Source: Pseudomonas versuta
Lineage (GTDB): Bacteria; Pseudomonadota; Gammaproteobacteria; Pseudomonadales; Pseudomonadaceae
Length of the DNA stretch: 64,000 nucleotides
Assembly: GCF_001294575.1 (NCBI RefSeq)
Contig: NZ_CP012676.1
Span: 3,176,001-3,240,000 of the forward strand
Direction: 5' to 3'
The notes below the pieces were generated by a model, which searched no databases, had not been told where the DNA came from, and saw only the letters and a list, made by a program, of their open reading frames with translations. This document shows positions 9,665 to 23,651 of the stretch, one piece after another. A program made the translations under genes and the position numbers. Numbering within the stretch: the stretch's first letter is position 1; each line of letters opens with the position of its first letter.

Positions 9665-11008
9665 TTAAGCCTGAGCCGCCAATACACGGCGTTCCCAGGG
9701 GGTGATTTCATCATAGAAGCTGGTCAATTCCAGGGTCTTGGACGCAACGTAACCTTCGATGAACTCCTTACCGAACAGTTCCATCGCCAAGTGACTGCGT
9801 TTGAGACGCTCAAGGGCCGCATGCAAGGTACATGGCAGGGACAAAGAATCCGGCACGTCGAATTCACCCTGGATCGCAGCCGTCGGTTCCAGCTCGTTTT
9901 CAATCCCGTACAGGCCTGCCGCAAGGCTCGCGGCAATCGCCAGGTACGGGTTGGCGTCAGCCCCCGGCAAGCGGTTTTCGACCCGTCGTGCGACGGGCGA
10001 ACTGGCCGGGATCCGCAACCCCGCCGCCCGGTTGTCATGGGACCAGCAGGCATTGTTCGGCGATGCATACGGGTGGCACAGGCGCTGGTAGGAATTGACG
10101 TTCGGTGCAAACAGCGCCGTAAAGTCGGCCATGCCCGCCTGTTGCCCGCCGATAAAGTGACGGAAGGTGGCTGTCGGCTCCCCCGCCTGATCGCTGAACA
10201 CGTTGCGGCCGCTGTGCGCCTCCACCACGCTTTGGTGAATGTGCATCGAGCTGCCGGCAGTGTGTGCCAGAGGCTTGGCCATGCACACCACGGTCAGCCC
10301 GTGCTTGAGGGCGACTTCTTTGAGCAGGTGCTTGAACAAAAAGGTCTGGTCGGCCAGCAGCAGCGGATCACCATGCAGCAGGTTGATCTCGAACTGGCTG
10401 ACGCCCATCTCGTGCATGAAGGTGTCACGTGGCAGGCCCAGGGCCGCCATGCATTCATAGACTTCACTGAAGAACGGACGCAGACCGTTATTGGAGCTGA
10501 TGCTGAACGCCGAAAAGCCGTCCTCGCGACGACCGTCCAGACCCACAGGCGGACGGAACGGGTGGGTCGGATCCGGGTTGGGGGCAAACACAAAAAACTC
10601 GAGCTCGGTGGCCACCACCGGTGCCAGGCCACGAGCGGCGTAACGGGCGATCACCGCCTTCAACTGACCCCGGGTCGACAGGCGCGAACTTTCACCGCTG
10701 AACTCAGCGGCATCGCAAATGGCTAGCGCACGAGGCTGCTGGCTCCAGGGCAAAGGGTAGATGTGTGCCGGGTCCGGCACCAGCGCCAGGTCACCGTCAT
10801 CGCTGCCGTAAAAGCGCGATTCGGGGTAACCGCCCATGATGCATTGCAGCAGCACGCCCCGGGCCATTTGCAGGCGCCGGCCTTCGAGGAACCCCGCGCC
10901 AGTCATCACCTTGCCGCGCGGCACACCGTTCAAATCGGGGGTTACACATTCAATTTCGTCAATGCCGGTCAATCGCTGTGCGAGAGAACGCTGGTCATCG
11001 GTCGTCAT
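9665..11008 (-). CDS. Glutamine synthetase family protein, PuuA-like (gamma-glutamylpolyamine synthetase)
   Basis: This 447-residue enzyme has the glutamine synthetase beta-grasp and catalytic domains. The ATP/metal-site segments are visible: VVATELEFFVF (about 129-139), MHEMGVSQFEINLLHGD (about 195-211) and GSSMHIHQSV (about 253-262). Pseudomonads carry several such paralogs that ligate glutamate to putrescine, spermidine or other amines rather than ammonia. No aminotransferase or polyamine transporter is adjacent, so the amine cannot be assigned from context. A 300-bp region upstream separates it from the divergent LacI-type gene. Confidence 0.85.
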   Translation of the reverse strand: MTTDDQRSLAQRLTGIDEIECVTPDLNGVPRGKVMTGAGFLEGRRLQMARGVLLQCIMGGYPESRFYGSDDGDLALVPDPAHIYPLPWSQQPRALAICDAAEFSGESSRLSTRGQLKAVIARYAARGLAPVVATELEFFVFAPNPDPTHPFRPPVGLDGRREDGFSAFSISSNNGLRPFFSEVYECMAALGLPRDTFMHEMGVSQFEINLLHGDPLLLADQTFLFKHLLKEVALKHGLTVVCMAKPLAHTAGSSMHIHQSVVEAHSGRNVFSDQAGEPTATFRHFIGGQQAGMADFTALFAPNVNSYQRLCHPYASPNNACWSHDNRAAGLRIPASSPVARRVENRLPGADANPYLAIAASLAAGLYGIENELEPTAAIQGEFDVPDSLSLPCTLHAALERLKRSHLAMELFGKEFIEGYVASKTLELTSFYDEITPWERRVLAAQA

Positions 11009-11113: not shown

Positions 11114-11211
11114 CGTAGTCGCTACCGAGGAACGAAGGCTGCGAAAAGGGCCGCAGGTGTTCAGGTCGCTGAATCTCCCCTCGCAGCCTTCGTTCCTTGG
11201 CAGCGACTACG
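11114..11211. repeat. Long inverted repeat (cgtagtcgct type)
   Basis: About 30-base arms starting cgtagtcgctaccgaggaac and ending ccttggcagcgactacg fold into an extended hairpin in the divergent region between the PuuA-like and LacI-type genes. A related element lies at 17061-17142. Confidence 0.8.
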
Positions 11212-11308: not shown

Positions 11309-12319
11309 ATGCCTAAAGACGACACTCACTTGATCACCGCCCACGATGTTGCTCGCCATGCCGGGGTCTCGCGCTCGGCGGTTTCACGCACGTTCACTCC
11401 GGGCGCCAGCGTGTCGCCGCATACCCGCGACAAGGTCATGGCTTCCGCCCGAGCACTGGGTTATCAGGTCAATCTGATCGCCCGCACCATGAACAAGGGT
11501 TACAGCAATTTCGTCGGCGTGGTCACCGCAGGCTTTGAAAGCCCGTTCCGGGCCAGCCTGTTGAGCCCGATCACCGTGGCCCTGAACAGACAAGGGTTGA
11601 TGCCGCTGTTGATGAACGCCGATGACCCGCTGCAACTCGAACAGTCACTGCATGAACTGCTCAGCTATCAGATTGCCGGGGTGATTCTGACTTCGGCATC
11701 GCCGCCGCTGTCGGTGGTCCAGCATTACCTGAAACACCAGATCCCGGTGGCCATGATCAACCGCGGACACGAACTGGAGGGCGCCGAAGTCATCGGCAGC
11801 GACAACCGCGGCGGCGGTCGCCTGGCAGCCGACACCCTGCTCGCCGGCGGCGCAAAGCGCCTGGCTTTTATCGGTCAGGGCACACACAACTACAGTAGCC
11901 GGGAACGCTGGGAAGGCTTTCGCGACCGGCTCGCCGAAGTCGGCCTCAGCCCGGTGGCGGTGCTGGATGCCGCACCCGGCTATGACGGCGGGCTCGGCGC
12001 AGTCCAACAGTTGTTCAGCGCCAGTGAACGGCCCGATGCACTGTTTTGTGCAACCGACATGCTGGCCATGGGCGCGCTGGACGGGCTGCGTTTCAAGTTG
12101 CAGCTGTCCGTTCCCAACGATGTACAAGTCATAGGTTTCGACGATATTCCCCAGGCGGCAAACCTGGCCTACAACCTCACCACCCTGCGCCAGAACAGCA
12201 ATGCACTGGCAGCAAGCGCGGTAGCTGCCATTGTCGCCCGTCGCAAAAATTTTCAGCAACGAAGCGTGCACGGCTCTATTGCGGTGTCCTTGGTCAGTCG
12301 CGGCAGCACGATAGAATAA
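11309..12319 (+). CDS. LacI-family transcriptional regulator of the organophosphate locus
   Basis: The 336-residue protein has a LacI helix-turn-helix at the N-terminus (ITAHDVARHAGVSRSAVSRT, about 9-28), the hinge helix (VNLIARTMNKG) and a periplasmic-binding-protein-like effector domain to the end (VIGFDDIPQAANL near 278-290). The start ATG at 11309 is preferred over an upstream in-frame codon because it places the helix-turn-helix at the usual distance. It precedes, on the same strand, the phosphatase/transporter genes, two of whose starts carry the palindrome TTGCACACGTGTGCAA. That palindrome has the central CG typical of LacI-family operators. Effector unknown; an inositol phosphate or other sugar phosphate is my inference. 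Confidence 0.9.
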   Translation: MPKDDTHLITAHDVARHAGVSRSAVSRTFTPGASVSPHTRDKVMASARALGYQVNLIARTMNKGYSNFVGVVTAGFESPFRASLLSPITVALNRQGLMPLLMNADDPLQLEQSLHELLSYQIAGVILTSASPPLSVVQHYLKHQIPVAMINRGHELEGAEVIGSDNRGGGRLAADTLLAGGAKRLAFIGQGTHNYSSRERWEGFRDRLAEVGLSPVAVLDAAPGYDGGLGAVQQLFSASERPDALFCATDMLAMGALDGLRFKLQLSVPNDVQVIGFDDIPQAANLAYNLTTLRQNSNALAASAVAAIVARRKNFQQRSVHGSIAVSLVSRGSTIE

Positions 12320-12374
12320 TTTGTGTATTTTTATGTTGAATTGAATTTTTATTTCGTGTTGTATGAACCCTAAC

Positions 12375-12427
12375 AGTGAATCGCCCCCTGCCCGCGTGAA
12401 GGCAAAAAGGTCCATTCACTTTTTTTA
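12375..12427 (+). terminator. Weak terminator-like hairpin after the LacI-type gene
   Basis: The seven-base arms AGTGAAT and ATTCACT are 32 bases apart and are followed directly by a run of seven T. The long loop makes it a weak candidate. Confidence 0.35.
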
Positions 12428-12436
12428 AACAGCAGA

Positions 12437-12452
12437 TTGCACACGTGTGCAA
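12437..12452. promoter_or_regulatory. Candidate LacI-type operator 1 (TTGCACACGTGTGCAA)
   Basis: This perfect 16-bp palindrome with a central CG lies 16 bases before the ATG of the inositol-monophosphatase-family gene, where a bound repressor would block transcription. An identical copy occurs at 14973-14988. Confidence 0.8.
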
Positions 12453-12468
12453 ACCAAGGGAATAAAGC

Positions 12469-13311
12469 ATGTCGGCCAACCTCACTGCTCACCTGGACCT
12501 CTCTCAACACCAGCCGTTAGCCCTCGAGCATCGCTACATGCAAGCCCAGCGCATCGCGGTTCAGGCCGCGCAGCTGGGGCTTGAATACTATCGCCAGCGC
12601 GAAACCCTGGAAGTCCTTCACAAGGACGGTGTTGGCCAGGACGTCGTCAGCATGGCCGACCGTGAACTGGAAGATTTCATCAAGGGGCAATTGGCCGAAC
12701 AGTTCCCCGAAGATGGCTTTCTCGGTGAAGAAACCGGGGCCAGTGACTTGCAGGCGCGCTGCATCTGGGTGGTCGACCCGATTGACGGCACCAGCTGTTT
12801 CGTCAACGGCTTGCACACCTGGTGCGTGTCCATTGGCTTGCTGGTGGATGGCGTGCCGTACCTGGGCGCCGTGGCCGATGCCAACCACGATGAACTGTTT
12901 CATGCCTGCAAAGGCCTGGGCGCCTACGTCAACCAGACGCCGATCGTGGTCAACCCGGCTGCCGATCTGACCCTGGGCGTGACCGGTGTCGGCACCTCCC
13001 ATCGGCGCGGCAAGGAGCACTTTGTACCGTTCCTCAAACAGCTGCTGGATGAGGGCGGAATGTTCATTCGTAATGGTTCGGGTGCGTTAATGATTGCGTA
13101 CGTCGCCGCCGGACGCCTGCTCGGCTACTACGAAACCCATATCAACAGCTGGGATTGCCTGGCGGGCCTGGTGCTGGTTAGCGAAGCCGGTGGCCAGTGC
13201 AGTGATTTTTTAAAGGACCAGGGTCTGACTGAAGGCAACCCGCTGCTGGTGGCTGCCCCTCAGCTTTACCCGGCTCTGGCCCGCATGATCGGGCCGTCCT
13301 TGAACGGGTAA
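12469..13311 (+). CDS. Inositol monophosphatase family phosphatase
   Basis: This 280-residue cytoplasmic enzyme belongs to the metal-dependent FIG/IMPase superfamily. It shows the three diagnostic motifs: GEETG (about 86-90), WVVDPIDGTSCF (about 99-110) and INSWDCLAGLVLVSEAGG (about 225-242), which supply the Mg ligands and the catalytic acid. Family members dephosphorylate inositol monophosphate, histidinol phosphate, fructose bisphosphate or related compounds; substrate cannot be fixed from sequence. It lies directly behind operator 1 and is followed by an OPA-type transporter, so I infer it processes the imported organophosphate. Confidence 0.88.
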   Translation: MSANLTAHLDLSQHQPLALEHRYMQAQRIAVQAAQLGLEYYRQRETLEVLHKDGVGQDVVSMADRELEDFIKGQLAEQFPEDGFLGEETGASDLQARCIWVVDPIDGTSCFVNGLHTWCVSIGLLVDGVPYLGAVADANHDELFHACKGLGAYVNQTPIVVNPAADLTLGVTGVGTSHRRGKEHFVPFLKQLLDEGGMFIRNGSGALMIAYVAAGRLLGYYETHINSWDCLAGLVLVSEAGGQCSDFLKDQGLTEGNPLLVAAPQLYPALARMIGPSLNG

Positions 13312-13394
13312 ATGCTGCGGCCGCTGGCAGGCCGGCGCCCACACAAGTTTTGAAAGCAGGCCCCAAGAAAAACAAAAACAGGAAATCTTGCGCC

Positions 13395-14771
13395 ATGACA
13401 TCTCTACTCAATGCCTTCAAGGCAGCACCTGCCCGCGAGGGTGCCCCCAGCCATGACATGCAACGGTTCAAGGTATTGCGCTGGCAGACCTTCTTGTCCA
13501 TGTCACTGAGTTACGCCTTGTTCTACGTATGTCGCCTCTCGTTCAACGTGGTCAAGCCGGCACTGGTATCGAACAACATACTGACCCCCACTCAACTGGG
13601 CATCATCGGCTCGGCGCTGTTCTTCGCCTATGCGGTCGGCAAACTGGTCAACGGCTTTCTGGCCGACCACTCCAATGTCCGGCGCTTCATGATGCTGGGC
13701 CTGCTGCTCAGCGCAATCGTCAACGCCTGCATGGGCATGACCACCAACACGATCATCCTGACCCTGATCTGGGGCCTCAACGGCTGGGCCCAGTCCATGG
13801 GCGTCGGGCCGTGCGTGGTCTCGCTGTCGCGCTGGTACACCGACAAGGAACGCGGCACGTTCTATGGCTTCTGGTCGATTGCCCACAGCCTGGGCGAAGC
13901 CTTGACCTACGTGGCCGTGGCCGCCGTGGTGGTGACCTGGGGCTGGCAGTTCGGTTACTGGCTTGCCACCCTTATGGGGCTGGTGGGGCTGGCCCTGATT
14001 TACTTCTTTATGGCCGACTCGCCACAAAGTTGCGGCTTTGCTCCCGTGCAAGCCCCCGAGCCCCATGACAAGGCCGGGCCAAGCATCCTCGGCAAACAGC
14101 TGGAACTGCTGAAAAACCCGGCCCTGTGGCTGCTCGCCCTGGCCTCCTGCCTGATGTACATCGGGCGCTATGCGGTGATTTCCTGGGGCGTGTTCTTCCT
14201 TGAAAACGCCAAGGCCTATAACACCCTGAGCGCCTCGACACTGATCTCCATTACCGGAGTTTTCGGGATTATCGGTACCGGCCTGAGCGGTTTGATTTCG
14301 GACCGTTTCTTCAAGGGCAAGCGCAACGCCCTGGCGATGATTTTCGGCTTGATGAACACCGCGTCGCTGACCGCGTTCCTGTTCGTTCCGGCCGGCCATT
14401 ATTGGCTGGATGCCACAGCCATGATGTTCTTCGGCCTTTCGATGGGCGCGCTGCTGTGTTTCCTCGGCGGGCTGATGGCCACGGACATTGCCTCCAAAAG
14501 CGCTTCGGGCGCCGCGTTGGGCATGATCGGTATCGCCAGCTATGGCGGCGCAGCAGCAGGTGAAATTCTCACCGGCGTGCTGATCGAGCACGGCACCACA
14601 GTATTGAGCAATGGCAGCAAGTTGTATCAATTCCAGACCCTGTCGATCTTCTGGGTCAGCGCTTCACTGATTTCGGTACTCATGACCGCCCTGTTTGCCC
14701 TGTACATCCAGAAGCGCACGCCACCGCCAATGGGTAAAACAGCAGCGTTTCCTGAACCGACAAAGATATAA
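13395..14771 (+). CDS. Organophosphate:phosphate antiporter (GlpT/UhpT/PgtP-type MFS)
   Basis: The 458-residue inner-membrane protein has about 12 hydrophobic segments and the OPA-family landmarks: YALFYVCRLSFNVVKPAL (about 38-55), GKLVNGFLADHSNVR (about 80-94) and GPCVVSLSRWYTDKERGTFYG near 138-158. OPA members exchange sugar phosphates, glycerol 3-phosphate or phosphoglycerate for inorganic phosphate. The start at 13395 removes 15 residues of an open frame that lack family similarity. It sits 83 bases after the phosphatase gene and before an outer-membrane porin and two periplasmic acid phosphatases, consistent with importing partly dephosphorylated products. Confidence 0.9.
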   Translation: MTSLLNAFKAAPAREGAPSHDMQRFKVLRWQTFLSMSLSYALFYVCRLSFNVVKPALVSNNILTPTQLGIIGSALFFAYAVGKLVNGFLADHSNVRRFMMLGLLLSAIVNACMGMTTNTIILTLIWGLNGWAQSMGVGPCVVSLSRWYTDKERGTFYGFWSIAHSLGEALTYVAVAAVVVTWGWQFGYWLATLMGLVGLALIYFFMADSPQSCGFAPVQAPEPHDKAGPSILGKQLELLKNPALWLLALASCLMYIGRYAVISWGVFFLENAKAYNTLSASTLISITGVFGIIGTGLSGLISDRFFKGKRNALAMIFGLMNTASLTAFLFVPAGHYWLDATAMMFFGLSMGALLCFLGGLMATDIASKSASGAALGMIGIASYGGAAAGEILTGVLIEHGTTVLSNGSKLYQFQTLSIFWVSASLISVLMTALFALYIQKRTPPPMGKTAAFPEPTKI

Positions 14772-14786
14772 ACCAACGGTTGGTTT
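14770..14786. promoter_or_regulatory. 17-bp perfect palindrome at the end of the antiporter gene
   Basis: AAACCAAC-G-GTTGGTTT overlaps the antiporter stop codon and is followed by TTG. It may be a weak terminator or a second regulator's binding site upstream of the porin gene; the sequence alone does not decide. Confidence 0.4.
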
Positions 14787-14920
14787 TGAAATAAACAGTG
14801 ACATATACCTGCAATATTCATCCCGCATAGTTGGCGACTGGCCAGCAAGGAGTTGTTTGTTTCCCAAGAGCAATACCGCCGTGTCTTGGAACTAACAACA
14901 ACAATAAATGAGCAAACAAG

Positions 14921-15706
14921 ATGACCTACCCATTGAATGAAGCCCTGAACACCGGTTTTTTTTCACCGCAGGTTGCACACGTGTGCAAATCCGGTCGCTA
15001 CAACGGCCTGATCGCCGCCCTGTGCTTCACCGCGCTGGAAGGCGCGCTCATGCTGATGCCCACTGCGTCCCACGCGCTGGATCTGGACTACCAGCATCAG
15101 TACAACGAAAAGGATCGTGACCACACTGACAAGGTGATGATCACCCAGGCCCTGGACAATGGCCTGGCGTTCTCCTTCCAGATGGTCGCCAGCCCCGCGG
15201 TCAAGGAAAACGGCCAGCCCGGCCAGCCGTTTGAACACATGACCAAGGATGCCCTGAAAGGCAAGGTCAAGTACTCACACAAACTCACCAAGCGCTTGAA
15301 GTTCAAACCCAAGTTCACCTACTCCCAGGGCAAGGATAAAAAGTCCTATAAACCGGCGTTCAAATTCCCCTACGAGTTGAACAAAAGTTTTTCCGTGATC
15401 CCCGGTTACTACTACAAAGTCACCACTTATAAAGATGACGGCAAGGACACCAAAAGAGACAACGTCTGGTCACTGGGCGGTAAGTACCGAACCGACCGGA
15501 TGTCCATCGGCATCGCGCGCAAAGAGATTTACAGCAACCAGATAGCGTTTGACGGCAAGAAACGTAACTACAGCAACAAGTTCGTCATCGACTACAAAGT
15601 GACCCACCGGTTCATTCCGTACTTTGAAGTGGCCGACGTGTACGTCGACAAAGACACCGACGAGCGTCAGGCCCGCTATCGCGTGGGCTTTAAATACAAA
15701 TTCTGA
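14921..15706 (+). CDS. KdgM/NanC-like oligomer-specific outer-membrane porin
   Basis: The mature part looks like a small 12-strand outer-membrane barrel of the KdgM family: it begins ALDLDYQHQYNEKDRDHTDK after a signal sequence ending TASHA, has alternating aromatic strands with many Lys/Arg, and ends in GFKYKF with a terminal Phe. KdgM and NanC pass acidic oligosaccharides; the basic character suits anionic substrates such as inositol phosphates (inference). From the ATG at 14921 the leader is 48 residues, unusually long. A GTG at 14981, inside the palindromic operator, would give a 28-30-residue leader. It is followed 38 bases later by an acid phosphatase. Confidence 0.78.
   Translation: MTYPLNEALNTGFFSPQVAHVCKSGRYNGLIAALCFTALEGALMLMPTASHALDLDYQHQYNEKDRDHTDKVMITQALDNGLAFSFQMVASPAVKENGQPGQPFEHMTKDALKGKVKYSHKLTKRLKFKPKFTYSQGKDKKSYKPAFKFPYELNKSFSVIPGYYYKVTTYKDDGKDTKRDNVWSLGGKYRTDRMSIGIARKEIYSNQIAFDGKKRNYSNKFVIDYKVTHRFIPYFEVADVYVDKDTDERQARYRVGFKYKF
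14973..14988. promoter_or_regulatory. Candidate LacI-type operator 2 (TTGCACACGTGTGCAA)
   Basis: This is an exact copy of operator 1. It falls 52 bases inside the longest porin reading frame, which suggests either roadblock repression within the gene or that the true porin start is downstream of it. Confidence 0.8.
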
Positions 15707-15744
15707 TCGCGCCCTTCCCTTCAAGACCCTTCAGGAGACTGTGA

Positions 15745-17049
15745 ATGAACGTTTCTCTTTCGGCCCTTTTTCGTGTCACGGGCCCGTTGCTGACTGCCGC
15801 ACTAAGCATCAGCGCCCCCCTGATTGCCCACGCCCAGGACAACGGCCACTACGTACTGGAAAAAGCCGTACAGGTCAGCCGCCACGGCGTGCGCCCACAG
15901 ACCGACACACAAAAACTGGTGGACGCCACCCAGCGCCAGTGGCCCACCTGGCTGGTGCGTGACGGCGAACTTACCGGCCATGGTTATCTGGCAGCCAGCC
16001 TGATGGGCGCCTGGCAAGCCGGGCATTATCGTCATGCCGGGTTGCTCCCGGCGGGTTGCCCGGACAACACCACGGTGTACACCCTGTCCAGCCCCAAACA
16101 ACGCACTCGCGCCACGGCCGCTGCGTTGCTCGACGGCATGTTCCCCGGCTGCGGACAAAAGGCCCTGGCCAGCACGGAAAAACTCGACCCGCTGTTCCAG
16201 ACCGACAAGATGGACTTTGCCCGCATCGATCCGGTGATCGCCAAAGGTGAAATCCTCAAGGCCCTGGGCGGTGACCTGCAGGCGGCGAAGGCCCGACTGC
16301 AACCGGACCTGGACCTGCTCAAGGCCGCAGCCTGTATAGAAGGCAAACCATGCCCGTTCTACGAAGCCGAATGGGTGCTTAAACAGAATGATGAGGGGCG
16401 TCTGAAGATCAAGGGCCTGGACAAGGCGTCATCCCTGGGCGAAACCTTTCGCCTGCAATACAGCGAAGGCAAACCTTTGTCCGAAGTCGCTTTCGGCCAT
16501 GCCGCCAACGCCAAACAGGTGATGGCCCTGACCCGACTGCACCGCGCCAAGTACGACTTCGTCAATGACACGCCGCACATTGCCAAACGCGGTGGTTCGC
16601 AGTTGATGAACCAGTTGCTGCTGGCACTGGAACAAGGCACCGCACTGGAAAAATCCGACCCGCTGGGCAATCCGCCCAAAGCCCCGTTACTGGTGATTGT
16701 CGCCCACGACACCAACCTCTCGCACTTGCGCACCCTGCTCGGCTTTCACTGGGCCCTGGGCGAGTACCAGCCCGGCAACATCCCGCCAACCGGCACCCTG
16801 GCCTTTGAACGCTATCGCGACGCAAACAGTGGTGAACGCTTCATCCGCACCACCTTCCTGACCCAGTCACCGGATCAGATCCGCAACCTGACTCCGCTGA
16901 CCGGCAACAACGTGCCGCTGCAGGTGGACTTCGAACAGCCCGGCTGCAAAAAAACCGCGGTTGGCACCCTGTGCCCGCTGGAGAGTTTTGCCAGCACCCT
17001 GAGCAAAGCCATTGACCGCACCGCGATGACCACGGCGCGCTATCCATAA
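15745..17049 (+). CDS. Histidine acid phosphatase / phytase, AppA-like (copy 1)
   Basis: This 434-residue periplasmic protein has a signal peptide ending AHA and the histidine acid phosphatase fold. The catalytic motif at about 51-57 reads RHGVRPQ, where the last position is Gln instead of the consensus Pro (RHGxRxP). The proton-donor motif HDTN is present in VIVAHDTNLSHLR (about 315-327), as in AppA phytase. AppA-like segments also include PPTGTLAFERYR near the end. It probably strips phosphate from phytate or sugar phosphates in the periplasm. It follows the porin gene by 38 bases and is paralogous to the next gene. Confidence 0.88.
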   Translation: MNVSLSALFRVTGPLLTAALSISAPLIAHAQDNGHYVLEKAVQVSRHGVRPQTDTQKLVDATQRQWPTWLVRDGELTGHGYLAASLMGAWQAGHYRHAGLLPAGCPDNTTVYTLSSPKQRTRATAAALLDGMFPGCGQKALASTEKLDPLFQTDKMDFARIDPVIAKGEILKALGGDLQAAKARLQPDLDLLKAAACIEGKPCPFYEAEWVLKQNDEGRLKIKGLDKASSLGETFRLQYSEGKPLSEVAFGHAANAKQVMALTRLHRAKYDFVNDTPHIAKRGGSQLMNQLLLALEQGTALEKSDPLGNPPKAPLLVIVAHDTNLSHLRTLLGFHWALGEYQPGNIPPTGTLAFERYRDANSGERFIRTTFLTQSPDQIRNLTPLTGNNVPLQVDFEQPGCKKTAVGTLCPLESFASTLSKAIDRTAMTTARYP

Positions 17050-17060
17050 ACCACAGACCT

Positions 17061-17142
17061 GTAGTCGCTGCCGCAGGCTGCGATGGGGCCGGACAGAGAC
17101 GAAGGTCCTTCAGCCCTTATCGCAGCCTTCGCCAGCGACTAT
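17061..17142. repeat. Long inverted repeat (gtagtcgctg type)
   Basis: The arms gtagtcgctgccgcaggctgcgat and atcgcagccttcgccagcgact pair across about 35 bases between the two acid phosphatase genes; it is related to the element at 11114-11211. Confidence 0.8.
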
Positions 17143-17218
17143 ATGATTCAGAGTGCTTGAGTCATTTGCCGACTAGACTCTGCGCCCATTGTGTCCAGCA
17201 AGACCAAAAGGAACCCCC

Positions 17219-18511
17219 ATGAAGACCTCGCTCTACGCCAGCCTGCTACTGGCCGGCATGCTCAGCCCTCCAGCCTTTGCCCAAACCGCGTCCAGTGACG
17301 GCTACGTACTGGATAAAGTGGTACAGGTCAGCCGCCACGGGGTACGGCCGCCGACCGAGTCCAATGAAAAACTGCTCACCCGCGTGACCCAGCGTCAATG
17401 GCCAACCTGGCTGGTGCCGCTGGGCAATCTGACCGGCCACGGCTACACCGGCGCCGTCGAAATGGGCCGTTATCGCGGCCAGGTCCTGCGTACTGCCGGG
17501 CTGATCCCCAAAGGCTGCCCGGACGCCCGCCAACTGCTGGTCCATGCCAGCCCCCTGCAACGTACCAAAGCCACGGCCCAGGCCTTGCTCGACGGCATGT
17601 TCCCCGGTTGCGGGTTCCAGCCGACCTATGTTGCAGGCGAACAGGACGCCCTGTTCCAGGCCAATGAAATGCCATTTGCCGCCCTTGACCCGGCAAAAGC
17701 CAAGGCCCAAATCCTCAAGGCTCTGGGCGGCAGTGTTGAAGCCGCACAAGAGCGCTACAAACCCTTTGAAGAAAAACTCCGGGAAGTCGCCTGCCTGCCT
17801 GCCGCCGATTGCCCGTACGGCAAACAGCCCTGGGTACTCGAAGAAAACGCCAAGGGCCGCTTCTCGATCAAGGGCCTGAGCGCCGGTGCCAACATGGGTG
17901 AAGTGTTCCGCCTGGAGTACAGCCAGGGCCTGCCACTGGACAAGGTCGCCTTCGGCAATGCCCGTACCCCGGCCGAGGTGTCGAGCCTGATGGTACTGAC
18001 CAAAGCCAAATACGACTTCCTCAATGACATCCCCTACATCGCCAGCCGTGGCGCGTCCGAGCTGATGAACCAGATTTCCCTGGAGCTCAAGCAAGGCACC
18101 GCCTTCGCCAGCAAGGATCCACAGGGCGCCCCGCCCGATGTACCGCTGATGCTGCTGGTGGCCCACGACACCAACATCTCGTACCTGCGCACCATGCTCG
18201 GCTTCGGCTGGAAGCTGGGTGACTATCTGGAAAACAACATCCCGCCGGTAGGCACATTGCAGTTCGAGCGTTACAAGGAAGTCAAAACCGGCGACTACTT
18301 TTTGCGCATCGCCTTTGAAGCCCAGTCGATGGATCAGATCCGCAACCTGACCCGGCTAGACGGTGCCCAAACACCGCTCAAGGGTGATTTCGCAAGCGCC
18401 AAAGACTGCCGCAAAACCAGCGTCGGCCTGTTGTGCCCGCTCAAAGAGGCGCTGGTCAAAGTCGATCAGAACATTGATCCGACCGCGCTCACGCCTTACA
18501 GCTTCCAATAA
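17219..18511 (+). CDS. Histidine acid phosphatase / phytase, AppA-like (copy 2)
   Basis: This 430-residue paralog of the preceding gene has a signal peptide (MKTSLYASLLLAGMLSPPAFA) and the intact catalytic motif RHGVRPP at about 41-47, with HDTN in LVAHDTNISYLR near 320. Conserved cysteines, SPLQRTKATAQALLDGMF and PPVGTLQFERYK align with copy 1 and with AppA. It should be a periplasmic acid phosphatase acting on phytate or sugar phosphates. The ATG at 17219 follows AAAAGGA by seven bases. The gene is separated from copy 1 by 169 bases containing an inverted repeat, so its expression may differ. Confidence 0.9.
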   Translation: MKTSLYASLLLAGMLSPPAFAQTASSDGYVLDKVVQVSRHGVRPPTESNEKLLTRVTQRQWPTWLVPLGNLTGHGYTGAVEMGRYRGQVLRTAGLIPKGCPDARQLLVHASPLQRTKATAQALLDGMFPGCGFQPTYVAGEQDALFQANEMPFAALDPAKAKAQILKALGGSVEAAQERYKPFEEKLREVACLPAADCPYGKQPWVLEENAKGRFSIKGLSAGANMGEVFRLEYSQGLPLDKVAFGNARTPAEVSSLMVLTKAKYDFLNDIPYIASRGASELMNQISLELKQGTAFASKDPQGAPPDVPLMLLVAHDTNISYLRTMLGFGWKLGDYLENNIPPVGTLQFERYKEVKTGDYFLRIAFEAQSMDQIRNLTRLDGAQTPLKGDFASAKDCRKTSVGLLCPLKEALVKVDQNIDPTALTPYSFQ

Positions 18512-18627
18512 CCGGCGCCCTGGCGTAAAAGTCGCTTTCTGCGTTGAACCCGGGATGGGCACAATAGCGGCTCGACTCGCCAGGCATTTCCCGGCGTCTG
18601 AATCAGCATTTGAGGGAGCGGTATCGT

Positions 18628-19563
18628 TTGGAGTTGAGGCAACTGCGCTATTTCGTAAAGATTGTTGAACTGGGCAGTCTTGGACGTGCCGCTCTTGAAC
18701 TGGAGGTCGGGGTTTCGGCCCTGAGCCAGCAAATCTCCAGGCTCGAAAACGAGCTGTCGACCCGCCTGCTGAATCGCACCTCCACCGGCGTCACCCCCAC
18801 CAGCGCCGGTGTCGCCTTTTTACATCACGCCCAACTGACCCTGCGTCAGGCCGAAAACGCCGTGATGGCTGCCCATCGCGGCCGTATGAGCGGGTACGTC
18901 AGCGTCGGCCTGGCCCCCACCACGGCTACCGTGCTCGCGCTGCCCTTGATCAATGCGATGCGTGAGCGCTATCCGGACATTCAGTTGCATCTGGTGGAGA
19001 TGCTGTCGGGCCATTTGGCCACGCAGCTCAATGCACGACAGATTGACCTGGCCATCCTGTTTCAGCTCGAAGGCGGGAAGCGCTGGAGCATCACCCCCCT
19101 GCTCGATGAAAAACTGTTTGTCATCGCCTCACCCGAACTGCCCAATGCTCCTCGCGGTGATGGCGTGCAGATAGCCGACCTGGGCGGCTTGCCGCTGGTG
19201 ATGCCAAGTTCGCAACACGGGCTGCGTTCAACCTTGATGACGGCATTCGAGCGTTCGGGGATCACCCCCAATATCGTGATGGAAGTCGACGGTCTGGCAA
19301 TCTTGATGAACGCCGTGCGGGCCGGGCATGCCGCCACGATTCAACCCGGCGCGGCTGCGGCGCTTAAAGGCGAGTCAGGGCTTTCACTGGTGCAAATCAC
19401 TGACCCCCATGTGGGCCGGCGTAATCTTCTGGCGACCCTGGCCGATGACGAACTGTCCCCGGCGGCGCTGGCCACGCGGCTGGTGATGGTAGAGGTGGCA
19501 AAAAAACTGGTGCAGGATCACCAGTGGCCCGGCGCAACCCTGATTGAAACCGCCGACGACTAG
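18628..19563 (+). CDS. tcuR: LysR-family regulator of tricarballylate use, TcuR-like
   Basis: The 311-residue protein has a LysR winged helix-turn-helix at the N-terminus (QLRYFVKIVELGSLGRAALE then LSQQISRLENEL) and a periplasmic-binding-like effector domain. A TTG start at 18628 is chosen since it begins the family's usual ELRQLRYF and follows GAGGGAGCGG by about eight bases; an ATG-like frame start 18 bases upstream lacks such a site. It is transcribed in line with tcuABC, the order known from Salmonella. Effector presumably tricarballylate. Confidence 0.88.
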   Translation: MELRQLRYFVKIVELGSLGRAALELEVGVSALSQQISRLENELSTRLLNRTSTGVTPTSAGVAFLHHAQLTLRQAENAVMAAHRGRMSGYVSVGLAPTTATVLALPLINAMRERYPDIQLHLVEMLSGHLATQLNARQIDLAILFQLEGGKRWSITPLLDEKLFVIASPELPNAPRGDGVQIADLGGLPLVMPSSQHGLRSTLMTAFERSGITPNIVMEVDGLAILMNAVRAGHAATIQPGAAAALKGESGLSLVQITDPHVGRRNLLATLADDELSPAALATRLVMVEVAKKLVQDHQWPGATLIETADD

Positions 19564-19583
19564 CAACCCGAACCGGCCTACCC

Positions 19584-19598
19584 TTTAGTAAAACTAAA
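19584..19598. promoter_or_regulatory. Candidate LysR box upstream of tcuA
   Basis: TTTAGT-AAA-ACTAAA is a perfect palindrome with the T-N11-A form of LysR-family sites, located 107 bases before the tcuA start in the tcuR-tcuA gap. Confidence 0.5.
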
Positions 19599-19704
19599 CA
19601 CCCCGCGTCGAATCCTGTCTTTCGGCGCTTTGGGCGCTCACCTACCTTCTCCCTCCTTTGCAAGGCGCAATTGTTCCGGCTGCCTTGCGAACCGAGGAGA
19701 AATA

Positions 19705-21159
19705 ATGATCGATGTACTCATCATAGGTGGCGGCAATGCAGCCCTGTGTGCCGCACTGATGGCTCGGGAAGCCGGCGCCAGCGTCATGCTGCTTGAAGCC
19801 TCGCCCAAGGTATGGCGAGGCGGCAATTCTCAACACACGCGTAACCTGCGCTGCATGCACGATGCCCCTCAGGACGTGCTGATCGATGCCTATCCCGAAG
19901 AGGAATACTGGCAAGACCTGCTGAAGGTCACCGGCGGTATCACCGATGAGAAACTGGCCCGCATCGCCATTCGCGCGTCTTCGACCTGCCGCGACTGGAT
20001 GCGCTCCCATGGCGTGCATTTTCAACCGCCGCTATCGGGCGCGCTGCATGTGGCGCGGACCAACGCCTTTTTCATGGGCGGCGGTAAAGCCCTGGTCAAT
20101 GCTTATTTCCGCAGTGCCGAACGCCTGGGCGTCGAGATCCGCTACAACACGCAAGTGACCGACATTGAGCTCAAGGACGGCAAATTCATCGCCGCCCACA
20201 TTGGCGCACATGAGGTCGATGGCCAGGCCGTGGCCGCGCAACGCATTGAAGCCCGGGCCTGCGTACTGGCGGCAGGCGGCTTTGAGTCCAACCGTGAATG
20301 GCTGCGCGAAGCCTGGGGGCAGAATGAACGGGGGGAATGGCCTTCGGACAACTTCCTGATCCGTGGCACACGGTTCAACACCGGTATCCTGCTGCGGCGC
20401 ATGCTTGATCACGGTGCTGATGGGATCGGCGATCCGACCCAGGCGCACATGGTCGCCATTGATGCTCGCGCCCCCCTGTATGACGGCGGTATTTGCACGC
20501 GCATCGATTGCGTATCCCTGGGTGTGGTCGTCAACCGTGACGGCGAGCGGTTCTACGATGAGGGCGAAGATTTCTGGCCCAAGCGCTATGCCATCTGGGG
20601 ACGGCTGGTGGCGGGCCAACCGGGTCAGCAGGCGTACTCGATCATCGACCAGCAAGCCATCGGCCGCTTCATGCCGCCGGTGTTCTCCGGTACCCGGGCC
20701 AACACCCTGGAGGATCTGGCCCGCCAGCTGCAGCTGCCCCAGGCGGCGTTCGTGAAAACCGTGGAGGACTACAACAAGGCCTGTCACGTCGGCACCTTCG
20801 ACCACACCGCGCTGGACGATTGCCACACCCGGGGGCTAACCCCGGCCAAAACCCATTGGGCACGGCCGCTGGTGCAGCCACCGTTCTATGCCTATCCGCT
20901 CAAACCGGGCGTTACCTTCACCTATCTGGGCCTTGCCACCGACGAAACCGCTGCCGTGCATTTCAATGGCAAGCCCAGCCCCAACCTGTTCGTTGCCGGC
21001 GAAATGATGGCCGGCAACGTACTGGGCAAGGGCTACACCGCGGGTATCGGCATGGCCATCGGTACCGCGTTCGGGCGTATTGCCGGCGTACAGGCCGCCG
21101 CCTCCGTGGGCTATGGCCCTTCCTCCACGATTTCGGAATCTCGACATGCAACTGTTTGA
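19705..21159 (+). CDS. tcuA: FAD-dependent tricarballylate dehydrogenase TcuA
   Basis: TcuA oxidises tricarballylate to cis-aconitate, feeding the TCA cycle. The 484-residue flavoprotein starts with the FAD dinucleotide motif [20 protein letters not shown], has [13 protein letters not shown] near 130, and ends with the fumarate-reductase-type FAD segment [19 protein letters not shown]. The start ATG at 19705 follows GAGGAGA; the frame is open 75 bases further upstream without family similarity. It overlaps tcuB by 14 bases, and TcuB is its electron acceptor. Confidence 0.95.
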
Positions 21160-22303
21160 TCCCAAGGCATCCGGCGAATTGATCCCGGTATTGAACCTTG
21201 ATGAAACCGAAGTCCAGCGCCAGCTGGCGATCTGCAACTCCTGCCGTTACTGCGAGGGCTTCTGCGCGGTGTTTCCGGCCATGACCCGGCGTCTTGAATT
21301 TGCCCAGGCCGATATCCACTACTTGGCCAACCTTTGCCACAACTGTGGTGCGTGCCTGCATGCCTGCCAATACGCAGCCCCCCACGAATTTGCAATCAAT
21401 GTGCCCAAGGCCATGGCCAAGGTACGCCTCGACACCTACGCCGAATACGCCTGGCCCAAGGCCCTGGGCACTTTGTATCAGCGCAACGGCCTGACCCTGG
21501 CCCTGGCCACTGCGGCGGGGCTGGCGTTATTTCTGTGCCTCATGCTGATGGTGATGGGCAATCTCTTGACCCCTATGGCCGGGGGCAATTTCTACGGGAT
21601 TTTCCCGCACAACACACTGGCACTGATGTTCGGGCCGGTGTTCGGCTTTGCAGTGCTTGCCCTGACCCTGGGCGTACGCCGCTTCTGGCGCGATATTTCA
21701 CCTGCCAGCGCCCCTCTGGGGCTTAAAACCTCAGCGGCCCTGGAAGCGACGTCCAACGTTGCCCGGCTCAAGTATCTGGACGGAGGGCACGGCGAGGGCT
21801 GTAACAATAGCGACGACGCGTTCACCCTGTGGCGTCGGCGCTTCCACCACTTGACCTTCTACGGCTTCATGCTGTGCTTCGCAGCTACCGGCGTCGCCAC
21901 CCTCTATCACTTTGTCCTGCACTGGTCGGCTCCGTATCCCGTGTTCAGCCTGCCCGTGATGCTGGGCATCGTCGGTGGTCTTGGCCTGCTGGTCGGCCCG
22001 GCCGGGTTGTTATGGCTGAACCTGCGCCGTCATCCGGATCAGGGCGACGAACAGCAAAAGCCCATGGACCGCGGCTTTATCGCATTGCTGCTGTTGATCA
22101 GTGCCAGCGGGCTGGCGTTACTCGCCCTGCGTGACACCAGCGCCCTGGGGCTGGCCCTGGCGATCCACCTCGGCCTGGTCATGGCGTTCTTCCTGACCAT
22201 GCCGTACAGCAAATTTGCCCACGGCATCTTCCGCAGCGCAGCCCTGCTCAAATACGCCATCGAAAAGCGCCAGCCCAACCCGATTAACGCCGCAAGCGAC
22301 TGA
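21146..22303 (+). CDS. tcuB: Iron-sulfur membrane protein TcuB (tricarballylate utilisation)
   Basis: TcuB reoxidises the FADH2 of TcuA and passes electrons to the quinone pool. The 385-residue protein has two 4Fe-4S ligand sets near the N-terminus, [11 protein letters not shown] (about 30-40) and [11 protein letters not shown] (about 68-78), followed by about six membrane segments with histidines suited to haem binding. Translation is coupled to tcuA through a 14-base overlap. Length and layout match Salmonella TcuB. Confidence 0.94.
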
Positions 22304-22349
22304 CACGCGAACACTCATTCCAATAACAATATCCAGCAAGACGGTAGCC

Positions 22350-23651
22350 ATGATGAAAACAACAATAGAAACAAGCCGCAAAAAGGGGTCCAAGCTAGGC
22401 GCCATTTTGCGGGTCACCAGCGGTAACTTCCTCGAACAGTTCGACTTCTTCCTGTTCGGTTTTTACGCCACCTATATCTCCAGGACCTTCTTTCCTGCGA
22501 CCAGCGAATTTGCCTCGCTGATGATGACTTTTGCAGTCTTTGGTTCCGGCTTTTTGATGCGCCCGCTGGGCGCCATCATTCTGGGTGCCTACATCGACAA
22601 GGTGGGACGGCGTAAAGGGCTGATCGTAACGCTGTCGATCATGGCCGCGGGCACGGTACTGATTGCACTGGTGCCGGGCTATGCCAGCATCGGCATTGCC
22701 GCCCCGGTTCTGGTGTTGCTGGGACGGCTGCTGCAAGGGTTTTCTGCGGGTGCAGAAATGGGCGGTGTTTCGGTGTATCTGGCCGAAATCGCCACGCCCG
22801 GGCGAACGGGTTTCTACACCAGCTGGCAATCAGCCAGTCAGCAGGTGGCGATCATTCTGGCCGCTGCACTGGGATACTCGATCAATGCATTTATGGAGAC
22901 GTCCGAGATTGCCGCCTGGGGCTGGCGCATTCCGTTCTTCATCGGCTGCGTGATTATCCCGTTCATCTTTGTCATTCGCCGCTCGCTGGAAGAAACCGAG
23001 GCCTTCAAAGCCCGGCGCCACCACCCAAGCGCCAGCGAAGTGTTCCGCTCCATGCGTGAAAACTGGCGGACCGTGCTGGCGGGCGGCCTGCTGGCTTCCA
23101 TGACCACCACCACCTTCTACCTGATCACGGTCTACACCCCGACCTTCGGCAGGACCGTACTCAACCTGAGCACCACCGACAGTCTGGTGGTGACCCTGTT
23201 CGTCGGCCTGAGCAACTTCATCTGGTTACCCATTGGCGGCGCCCTCTCCGACAAAATCGGCCGTCGGCCCCTGCTGCTGGGCATTTCCCTGCTGTGCATG
23301 CTCACCGCCTATCCGGCCATGCATTGGCTGGCCGAAGCCGCGAGTTTTGAACGGCTGCTCATCGTGCTGCTGTACTTCTCGTTCTTCTTTGGTCTGTACA
23401 ACGGCGCAATGGTGGCAGCCCTGACCGAAGTCATGCCGCAAAACGTACGGGTGGTGGGGTTCTCTCTGGCCTTCAGCCTGGCCACGGCGCTATTCGGCGG
23501 CTTCACACCTGCCATTTCGACCATTCTGGTACAGGCTACCGGAGACAAGGCATCCCCTGCGTTCTGGCTGATGTTCGCGGCCTTTTGCGGGTTCTGCGCA
23601 ACGATGGCGCTGTACCGTCAGCAAAAAGCGCCGGTGCTCAACGTGGCATAA
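22350..23651 (+). CDS. tcuC: Tricarballylate/citrate:proton symporter TcuC (MFS, MHS family)
   Basis: The 433-residue inner-membrane protein belongs to the metabolite:H+ symporter family. It begins with the family segment [20 protein letters not shown] (about 25-44) and has the loop motif DKVGRRKGL and a later KIGRRPLLL. In this position behind tcuB it is the tricarballylate importer. Two adjacent ATGs at 22350 and 22353 are possible starts. Confidence 0.93.

Follow-up and report, generated by a model that had tools for sequence, protein, structure and literature searches.

A putatively LacI-controlled gene cluster of Pseudomonas versuta that probably serves the uptake and dephosphorylation of phytate and lower inositol phosphates

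By analyzing a 64,000-nucleotide stretch of Pseudomonas versuta DNA (hereafter the window; NZ_CP012676.1, C1:3176001-3240000 of a 5.15-Mb genome held in a single contig), we found that six genes at window positions 11309-18511 probably make up an operon that is induced by its substrate and handles phytate together with lower inositol phosphates. An initial annotation of the window had proposed a single phytate or inositol-phosphate pathway here, which is supported by a gene neighbourhood that recurs within Pseudomonas, by a Klebsiella cluster that contains the phytase PhyK, and by an island in another genome (G494) that joins inositol catabolism (iol) genes, phytase genes and a related transporter. 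Given PhyK and the G494 island, we favour phytate over glucose 1-phosphate as the substrate to which these sequences point. The features of the locus are as follows.

11309-12319, + strand: LacI-family regulator (PF00356 (LacI) plus Peripla_BP_3)
12437-12452, no strand: predicted operator O1, TTGCACACGTGTGCAA, a perfect 16-bp palindrome that ends 16 bp 5' of the phosphatase start
12469-13311, + strand: inositol monophosphatase-family enzyme, predicted cytoplasmic (PF00459, E 5.5e-51)
13395-14771, + strand: organophosphate:phosphate antiporter (OPA)-type transporter of the major facilitator superfamily (MFS; PF07690), predicted inositol-monophosphate:phosphate antiporter
14921-15706, + strand: basic KdgM-family outer-membrane porin (PF06178, E 2.6e-30, 106.2 bits against a cut-off of 22)
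14973-14988, no strand: predicted operator O2, the same 16-bp palindrome TTGCACACGTGTGCAA, located in the 5'-terminal coding part of the porin gene
15745-17049, + strand: histidine acid phosphatase/phytase 1, predicted periplasmic, a PhyK relative (PF00328)
17219-18511, + strand: histidine acid phosphatase/phytase 2, predicted periplasmic (PF00328; ATG at 17219)

All six reading frames are intact, without internal stops, and together with Pfam and NCBIfam profile matches they bear out the coordinates, strands, families and motifs first assigned to these genes, including two AppA-like phosphatases with RHGxRxP/HDTN motifs and a basic KdgM-like porin; the two palindromes were absent from that annotation and are newly found here. 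Queries for phytase 2 started at 17216, one codon before the ATG, and thus carried one extra residue. Scans for sigma-70 promoters (three promoter-like sites versus 2.4 in shuffled sequence) and for terminators (12 terminator-like sites versus 9.4) gave nothing above chance.

Under the scheme that we propose, the basic porin would admit polyanionic inositol phosphates to the periplasm, where both histidine acid phytases would strip off phosphates down to myo-inositol 2-monophosphate (Ins(2)P), the product at which AppA/PhyK-class phytases are reported to stop. The OPA transporter would take in inositol monophosphate as inorganic phosphate goes out, the cytoplasmic inositol monophosphatase would free phosphate and myo-inositol, and the myo-inositol would be degraded by means of the iol cluster found elsewhere in this genome. 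LacI on O1 and O2 would keep the operon off until bound by an inositol compound. Phosphate removal in the periplasm, phosphate-linked antiport and monoester hydrolysis in the cytoplasm would all follow from the known families, and the general design would be that of the inducible organophosphate uptake operons glp, uhp and pgt, here fitted to what phytases release from phytate. We infer the direction of transport and the order of the steps; the imported compound would be an inositol monophosphate, with Ins(2)P the likeliest candidate, and the inducer an inositol compound.

To follow the neighbourhood within the genus, we compared nine loci: those of the window, P. paraversuta, P. lundensis L1802 and DSM 6252, genome G059, Pseudomonas sp. 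PDM05 and ATCC PTA-122608, P. chlororaphis 14D6 and P. aylmerensis S1E40. The LacI gene, palindrome, phosphatase gene and transporter gene are kept in all nine, with O1 exact 5' of the phosphatase gene each time, and all six genes stand in order in seven of the nine. Co-occurrence in other genomes had been chosen in advance as the test on which the proposal could fail, and it was found: the neighbourhood recurs in Pseudomonas and, in a four-gene form, in Klebsiella. The closest relative sampled is P. paraversuta (transporter 96% and miaB 93% identical). In P. aylmerensis, the LacI gene, palindrome, phosphatase gene and transporter gene are followed by an OprD porin gene, and a beta-propeller phytase gene adjoins a TonB receptor gene. 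Flanking open reading frames (ORFs) are alike among the window, P. paraversuta and P. lundensis, and again among G059, PDM05 and PTA-122608, with P. chlororaphis and P. aylmerensis each different. The seven six-gene loci thus span at least three chromosomal settings; their constant order across these is more than chance would give, and the differing flanks indicate that the block behaves as a unit. In two further genomes, G197 (L054 8399-8768) and G116 (L055 6838-7060), phytase 2 (84% identical) is the sole cluster gene at the corresponding chromosomal position, next to the same glutamine synthetase-like gene as in the window. Since sequence resembling the first LacI codons is still present at the left junction in G197, deletion of the other genes seems likely at least there. 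Beyond the genus, the transporter was found in 1 of 293 genomes at the order level (the P. versuta genome only, E <= 1e-120) and in 2 of 369 at the class level (P. versuta, G000, and G494; E <= 1e-110); since these samples hold one genome per species and do not state whether Klebsiella is included, they show rarity and not absence. Four Legionella matches to the transporter (19-21% identity) were set aside because no other cluster gene accompanied them at E <= 1e-6.

Within the genus sample, the palindrome is confined to the locus. An 18-mer form of the site, allowed up to three mismatches, occurs at only two places in the 5.15-Mb genome, O1 and O2, and the pattern read backwards as a control gave one match per strand. 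Among 199 genomes sampled from the genus, the exact 16-mer is present in six (reversed control, 0 of 199), all seven of its sites fall within this locus, and the six genomes are the same six that have the transporter at E <= 1e-100. Shuffling seven loci 20 times each yielded 0.06 palindrome sites per locus at up to three mismatches. O2 is part of a 34-nt direct repeat of 12420-12453 (88% identical, T tract included). Both P. paraversuta and P. lundensis L1802 retain it, altered at a single base, amid changed surrounding codons, and the L1802 porin gene has an in-frame gap near it; no O2-like site was found near the porin gene at up to four mismatches in the other four porin-bearing Pseudomonas loci. 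In being intragenic, the predicted O2 resembles lac O2, itself an intragenic operator. The regulator combines a helix-turn-helix with a periplasmic-binding-like domain beside a palindrome with a central CG, which places it in the LacI class, and it reaches no NCBIfam equivalog cut-off. Its recognition region, AGVSRSAVSR-FTPGASV, is invariant in seven aligned homologues from Pseudomonas, Klebsiella, Burkholderia and Rhizobium, and the G059 protein, outside that alignment, reads TAGASV at this position. We take LacI to be the probable repressor of the locus, acting through O1 and O2. A LacI-type switch of its own had been suggested for the locus from the start, and this is supported by the palindrome, which Pseudomonas and Klebsiella share and which recurs in a slightly altered form in Burkholderia arboris. 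LacI-type control of inositol genes is on record as a class (PMC4052901), and the locus would have such control in common with the LacI-family IolR regulons; the palindrome here instead precedes genes for uptake and dephosphorylation, and the iol cluster seems, by reading, to possess a separate regulator of the RpiR type.

The Klebsiella form came from a tblastn search of plasmid records with the transporter, which matched 224 records, the best being from K. pneumoniae (54% identical) and K. aerogenes (53%); the best 10 of the 224 were listed and six of these examined, and a Proteus record, which lacked annotation, was left aside. In three Klebsiella records, one K. pneumoniae plasmid of 316 kb, a second K. 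pneumoniae record labelled plasmid but 5.37 Mb long and one from K. aerogenes, the gene order is LacI, phosphatase, transporter, phytase, without the porin and without a second phytase. Identity to the window is 50-53% for LacI, 58-59% for the phosphatase, 41-42% for the phytase and, for the transporter, 54% in K. pneumoniae and 50-58% in pieces in K. aerogenes. The palindrome again precedes the phosphatase gene; it is exact in K. aerogenes and deviates at one position in K. pneumoniae. The phytase of this cluster is near-identical to the solved 3-phytase 2WNH (E 2.2e-263), an enzyme known as PhyK (PMC11219571). K. pneumoniae CP-84, known here from its PhyK-related phytase alone, was isolated on phytate as sole carbon/phosphorus source (PMC11219571), and an iol-positive state is reported for at least 97% of the genomes of this species (PMC9430895). 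As far as the PhyK literature was accessible to us, it describes the enzyme and not its cluster.

The most direct support for inositol-phosphate transport is a sequence arrangement in one genome, G494. There, on one strand, genes for an RpiR-type regulator, a PfkB-DUF2090 protein (IolC), IolD, an AP_endonuc_2 protein (IolE-like), IolB and an aldehyde dehydrogenase (IolA-like) are followed by those for a transporter 40% identical and a phosphatase-family protein 30% identical to the window's. Beyond the opposite end of the iol run stand a His_Phos_2 gene, a TonB receptor gene and one for a beta-propeller phytase, and the whole set fits into about 20 kb. This island lies at about 225-244 kb of contig C33 (L072, L088), and TonB receptors are found in it. 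In P. versuta itself, IolD scores above its cut-off at C1:1318311-1320227, in a cluster whose ORFs we read as IolR (RpiR type), IolC, E, B, A, D and G plus an ATP-binding cassette (ABC) importer. IolD was above the cut-off in all nine Pseudomonas carriers, three further named ones included, and in the genus sample in 6 of 6 carriers versus 86 of 193 other genomes (one-sided p 0.009).

Both phytases of the window have the catalytic RHGxRxP and HD motifs of histidine acid phosphatases (RHGVRPQT and RHGVRPPT, each with HDTN), and they are 51% identical to each other. Phytase 1 has 2WNH as its best solved match (E 2.3e-97) and is 42% identical over residues 36-427 to the K. pneumoniae cluster phytase. 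PhyK (PDB 2WNH/2WNI) is a histidine acid phytase of the same branch that sits, in K. pneumoniae, in the same LacI-palindrome-phosphatase-transporter cluster, differing in its single phytase and the lack of a KdgM porin. E. coli AppA (31% identical to phytase 1) and Agp (27%) belong to the same His_Phos_2 family, and the SRH..R and HD..N positions are common to all eight aligned proteins, but both phytases score below the NCBIfam cut-offs for AppA and for Agp. For the AppA-type model they reach 240 and 221 bits versus 585; as the Klebsiella PhyK gene product reaches just 191 bits, this cut-off shuts out a known phytase. The match of both phytases to the Agp glucose-1-phosphatase model, although below its cut-off, leads to an alternative, namely broad scavenging of sugar phosphates, in which the phosphatases would hit many monoesters and the transporter would import hexose phosphate or glucose 1-phosphate to be cleaved inside. 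Sugars are also the effectors of most assigned LacI regulators (PMC4052901), and phosphatases related to that of the cluster adjoin ABC importers with SBP_bac_6 proteins in Pantoea and Burkholderia. We nevertheless regard this alternative as unlikely, given that the Klebsiella version carries PhyK, a solved 3-phytase, that the G494 transporter and phosphatase genes come after an iol run beside phytase genes, and that both phytases read HDTN like AppA where Agp reads HDSN. Histidine acid phosphatases were identified in 12 of the 199 genus genomes, five of which carry this locus. The host genome also has a separate beta-propeller phytase gene at C1:2231939-2232883.

The phosphatase belongs to the PF00459 family, with its GEE, DPxDGT and WD motifs invariant in a seven-member alignment, and its N-terminus shows no hydrophobic stretch by eye. 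Although it has the family and the catalytic motifs in common with SuhB/IMPase, HisN and CysQ, it falls below their equivalog cut-offs (HisN 136 of 275 bits, IMPase 116 of 332, CysQ 77 of 229) and has signatures of its own such as FVNGLHTWCVSI. Relatives of this enzyme also occur with a different importer. In Burkholderia arboris, a LacI protein (50% identity to that of Klebsiella) and the phosphatase (57% identity) occur together with TTGCACTCGTGTGCAA, present twice, and with an ABC importer whose binding protein is of the SBP_bac_6 type; we take such SBP_bac_6 systems to be akin to the Fbp/Afu sugar-phosphate importers. Pantoea dispersa combines LacI, a related ABC system, the phosphatase and a palindrome site with two mismatches. 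B. stagnalis (L075) has, besides a LacI homologue, a single exact copy of the palindrome close to ABC genes; no phosphatase match was found within the 16 kb examined. Two rhizobial loci (L073, L074) have adjacent LacI and phosphatase genes and ORFs reading as ABC genes, with the palindrome at three mismatches in L073 only. Three loci of this type lie at L069 676-7612, L070 209-6674 and L073 3873-9809 (Burkholderia, Pantoea and, by reading, Rhizobium). LacI, palindrome and phosphatase therefore look like the core, to which a varying importer is joined. For the wider proposal, a dedicated inositol-monophosphate:phosphate antiporter and matching phosphatase in one LacI regulon that extends over Pseudomonas, Klebsiella and Burkholderia with a swap between OPA and ABC importers, we would put the chances at about even.

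Alternatively, phospholipid turnover might supply the natural substrate, as Ins(1)P or glycerophosphoinositol, and phytate might be of secondary importance. P. aylmerensis, which has LacI, phosphatase and transporter without histidine acid phytases, would suit this explanation, as would the rhizobial LacI-phosphatase pair of L073, 3' of which an ORF reads by eye like a phosphodiesterase. With a phytase inside the cluster in seven of the nine Pseudomonas loci and in the three Klebsiella records examined, we find it distinctly improbable. The porin is likewise present in seven of the nine loci. Its match to PF06178 is well above the cut-off, a feature in common with KdgM/NanC-type porins, but in the loci examined it accompanies phytases and not oligogalacturonate or sialate genes. 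Its assumed mature part, with the cut site chosen by eye, has 42 K+R, 26 D+E and an isoelectric point of 9.6.

Periplasmic phosphatases often serve phosphate supply, and the locus might on that account be a PhoB-type phosphate-starvation locus for phosphate salvage only; Pho-like control has been proposed by the authors of one study for their isolates (PMC11219571). Such a role is highly improbable in view of the dedicated LacI and palindrome and of an organophosphate antiporter that would be superfluous if phosphate alone were salvaged. Nor was there any match within the locus, at up to three mismatches, to the PhoB-box consensus CTGTCATNNNNCTGTCAT, which has one match in the window, at 9821, versus 4.0 expected by chance.

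The transporter aligns with GlpT (1PW4, E 6.4e-49), and its best NCBIfam matches are PgtP, UhpC and GlpT; as every score in the GlpT/UhpT/UhpC/PgtP group is below its cut-off, it belongs to none of these models. In a 12-protein alignment, its R47, K83, H164 and R258 match GlpT and UhpT. Two of these, R47 and R258, align with R45 and R269 of GlpT, the paired arginines for the substrate phosphate, and H164 with the pocket histidine, in keeping with an OPA-type protein. The cluster transporters have K54, N86, E168, S263 and E390 in common with the G494 protein and with two proteins from Vibrio and Plesiomonas, labelled PgtP-like in this analysis (their records say MFS transporter only), and not with GlpT, UhpT or UhpC. 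At position 164, the cluster transporter, GlpT and UhpT have H where the two PgtP-like proteins have R. Thus, although GlpT, UhpT, UhpC and PgtP share with them the MFS family, the two arginines and further cavity residues, the cluster transporters of Pseudomonas and Klebsiella are below every subfamily cut-off and form a group of their own in the tree (support 100/100); G494 and the PgtP-like proteins join this group at an open fork, with unsure placement relative to the long UhpT/UhpC/GlpT branches. The residue pattern supports an organophosphate carrier with a pocket unlike that of GlpT or UhpT, a prediction from alignment that does not name the substrate. That the transporter carries three-carbon phosphoesters like PgtP, with the gene neighbourhood incidental, is scarcely credible despite the top PgtP score and the K54, N86, E168 and E390 common with the Vibrio and Plesiomonas proteins, since the PgtP, GlpT, UhpT and UhpC models are all far below cut-off, H164 is as in GlpT/UhpT and R in the two PgtP-like proteins, and a phosphatase gene adjoins the transporter gene in all nine Pseudomonas loci.

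Several observations weigh against the proposed inositol-phosphate operon. One paper calls PhyK 'assumed to completely dephosphorylate phytate' (PMC12838507), which would make a monoester step needless. The transporter is split over two frames in two of the nine Pseudomonas loci (L020, L021): ATCC PTA-122608, with its six genes in order, and P. lundensis DSM 6252, where a contig edge follows the transporter. In K. aerogenes NCTC10006 it is annotated as three pieces, and in the 5.37-Mb K. pneumoniae record IolD is in two pieces with a stop and scores below cut-off. The P. aylmerensis genome contains no histidine acid phosphatase, and the family that scores highest for the transporter is the phosphoglycerate carrier PgtP. 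The G494 phosphatase is only 30% identical, and the G494 transporter lies outside the Pseudomonas-Klebsiella group, beside it and the PgtP-like proteins in the open fork, so that it may be no orthologue. When relatedness was controlled for (miaB at least 84% identical, among the matches listed), IolD was present in 75 of 107 other genomes and the p value rose to 0.13; relatedness can therefore explain the IolD association, with the caveat that miaB resolves relatedness coarsely, as 15 of the 199 genomes had no match and others weak matches only. We accordingly rejected IolD presence as proof of the pathway; within Pseudomonas the association is weak, though consistent with the scheme.

Every family in the locus is already known, and PhyK is well known; their combination may be new. 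The initial annotation knew of no described system that combines them, and our literature search, with most subscription papers beyond its reach, likewise met with neither the cluster nor the palindrome nor any bacterial importer of inositol phosphate; an agp cluster is on record (PMC12712290), without these genes in the accessible part of that source. Plants store their phosphorus mainly as phytate (PMC9430895). Much is known both about phytases and about the iol pathway, while the entry of the last inositol phosphate into a Gram-negative cell is undescribed in the literature found. If our proposal is true, the antiporter and phosphatase would answer how bacteria use the Ins(2)P left by histidine acid phytases. 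With a candidate importer, a predicted inducible switch whose 16-bp site is defined, and the known phytase PhyK in a matching setting, the locus makes the question directly testable, and it could mark those soil, food and gut bacteria for which phytate is a carbon source.

Directly 3' of the locus, 18610-23651 contains a LysR gene, TcuA (NCBIfam, 757 bits versus 369) and two genes reading as TcuB and TcuC, and thus a tricarballylate/citrate-type operon, which is matched in P. paraversuta and not in the stretches fetched for other loci. On the other side, a glutamine synthetase-like gene (9665-11008), below every listed equivalog cut-off, is divergent from the LacI gene. Related REP (repetitive extragenic palindromic)-like inverted repeats with arms of 31-32 nt, at 11114-11211 and 17062-17141, bracket the block from LacI to phytase 1; as a cause of the reduced site they are unsupported in G197, where the LacI-like start is kept 3' of the repeat.

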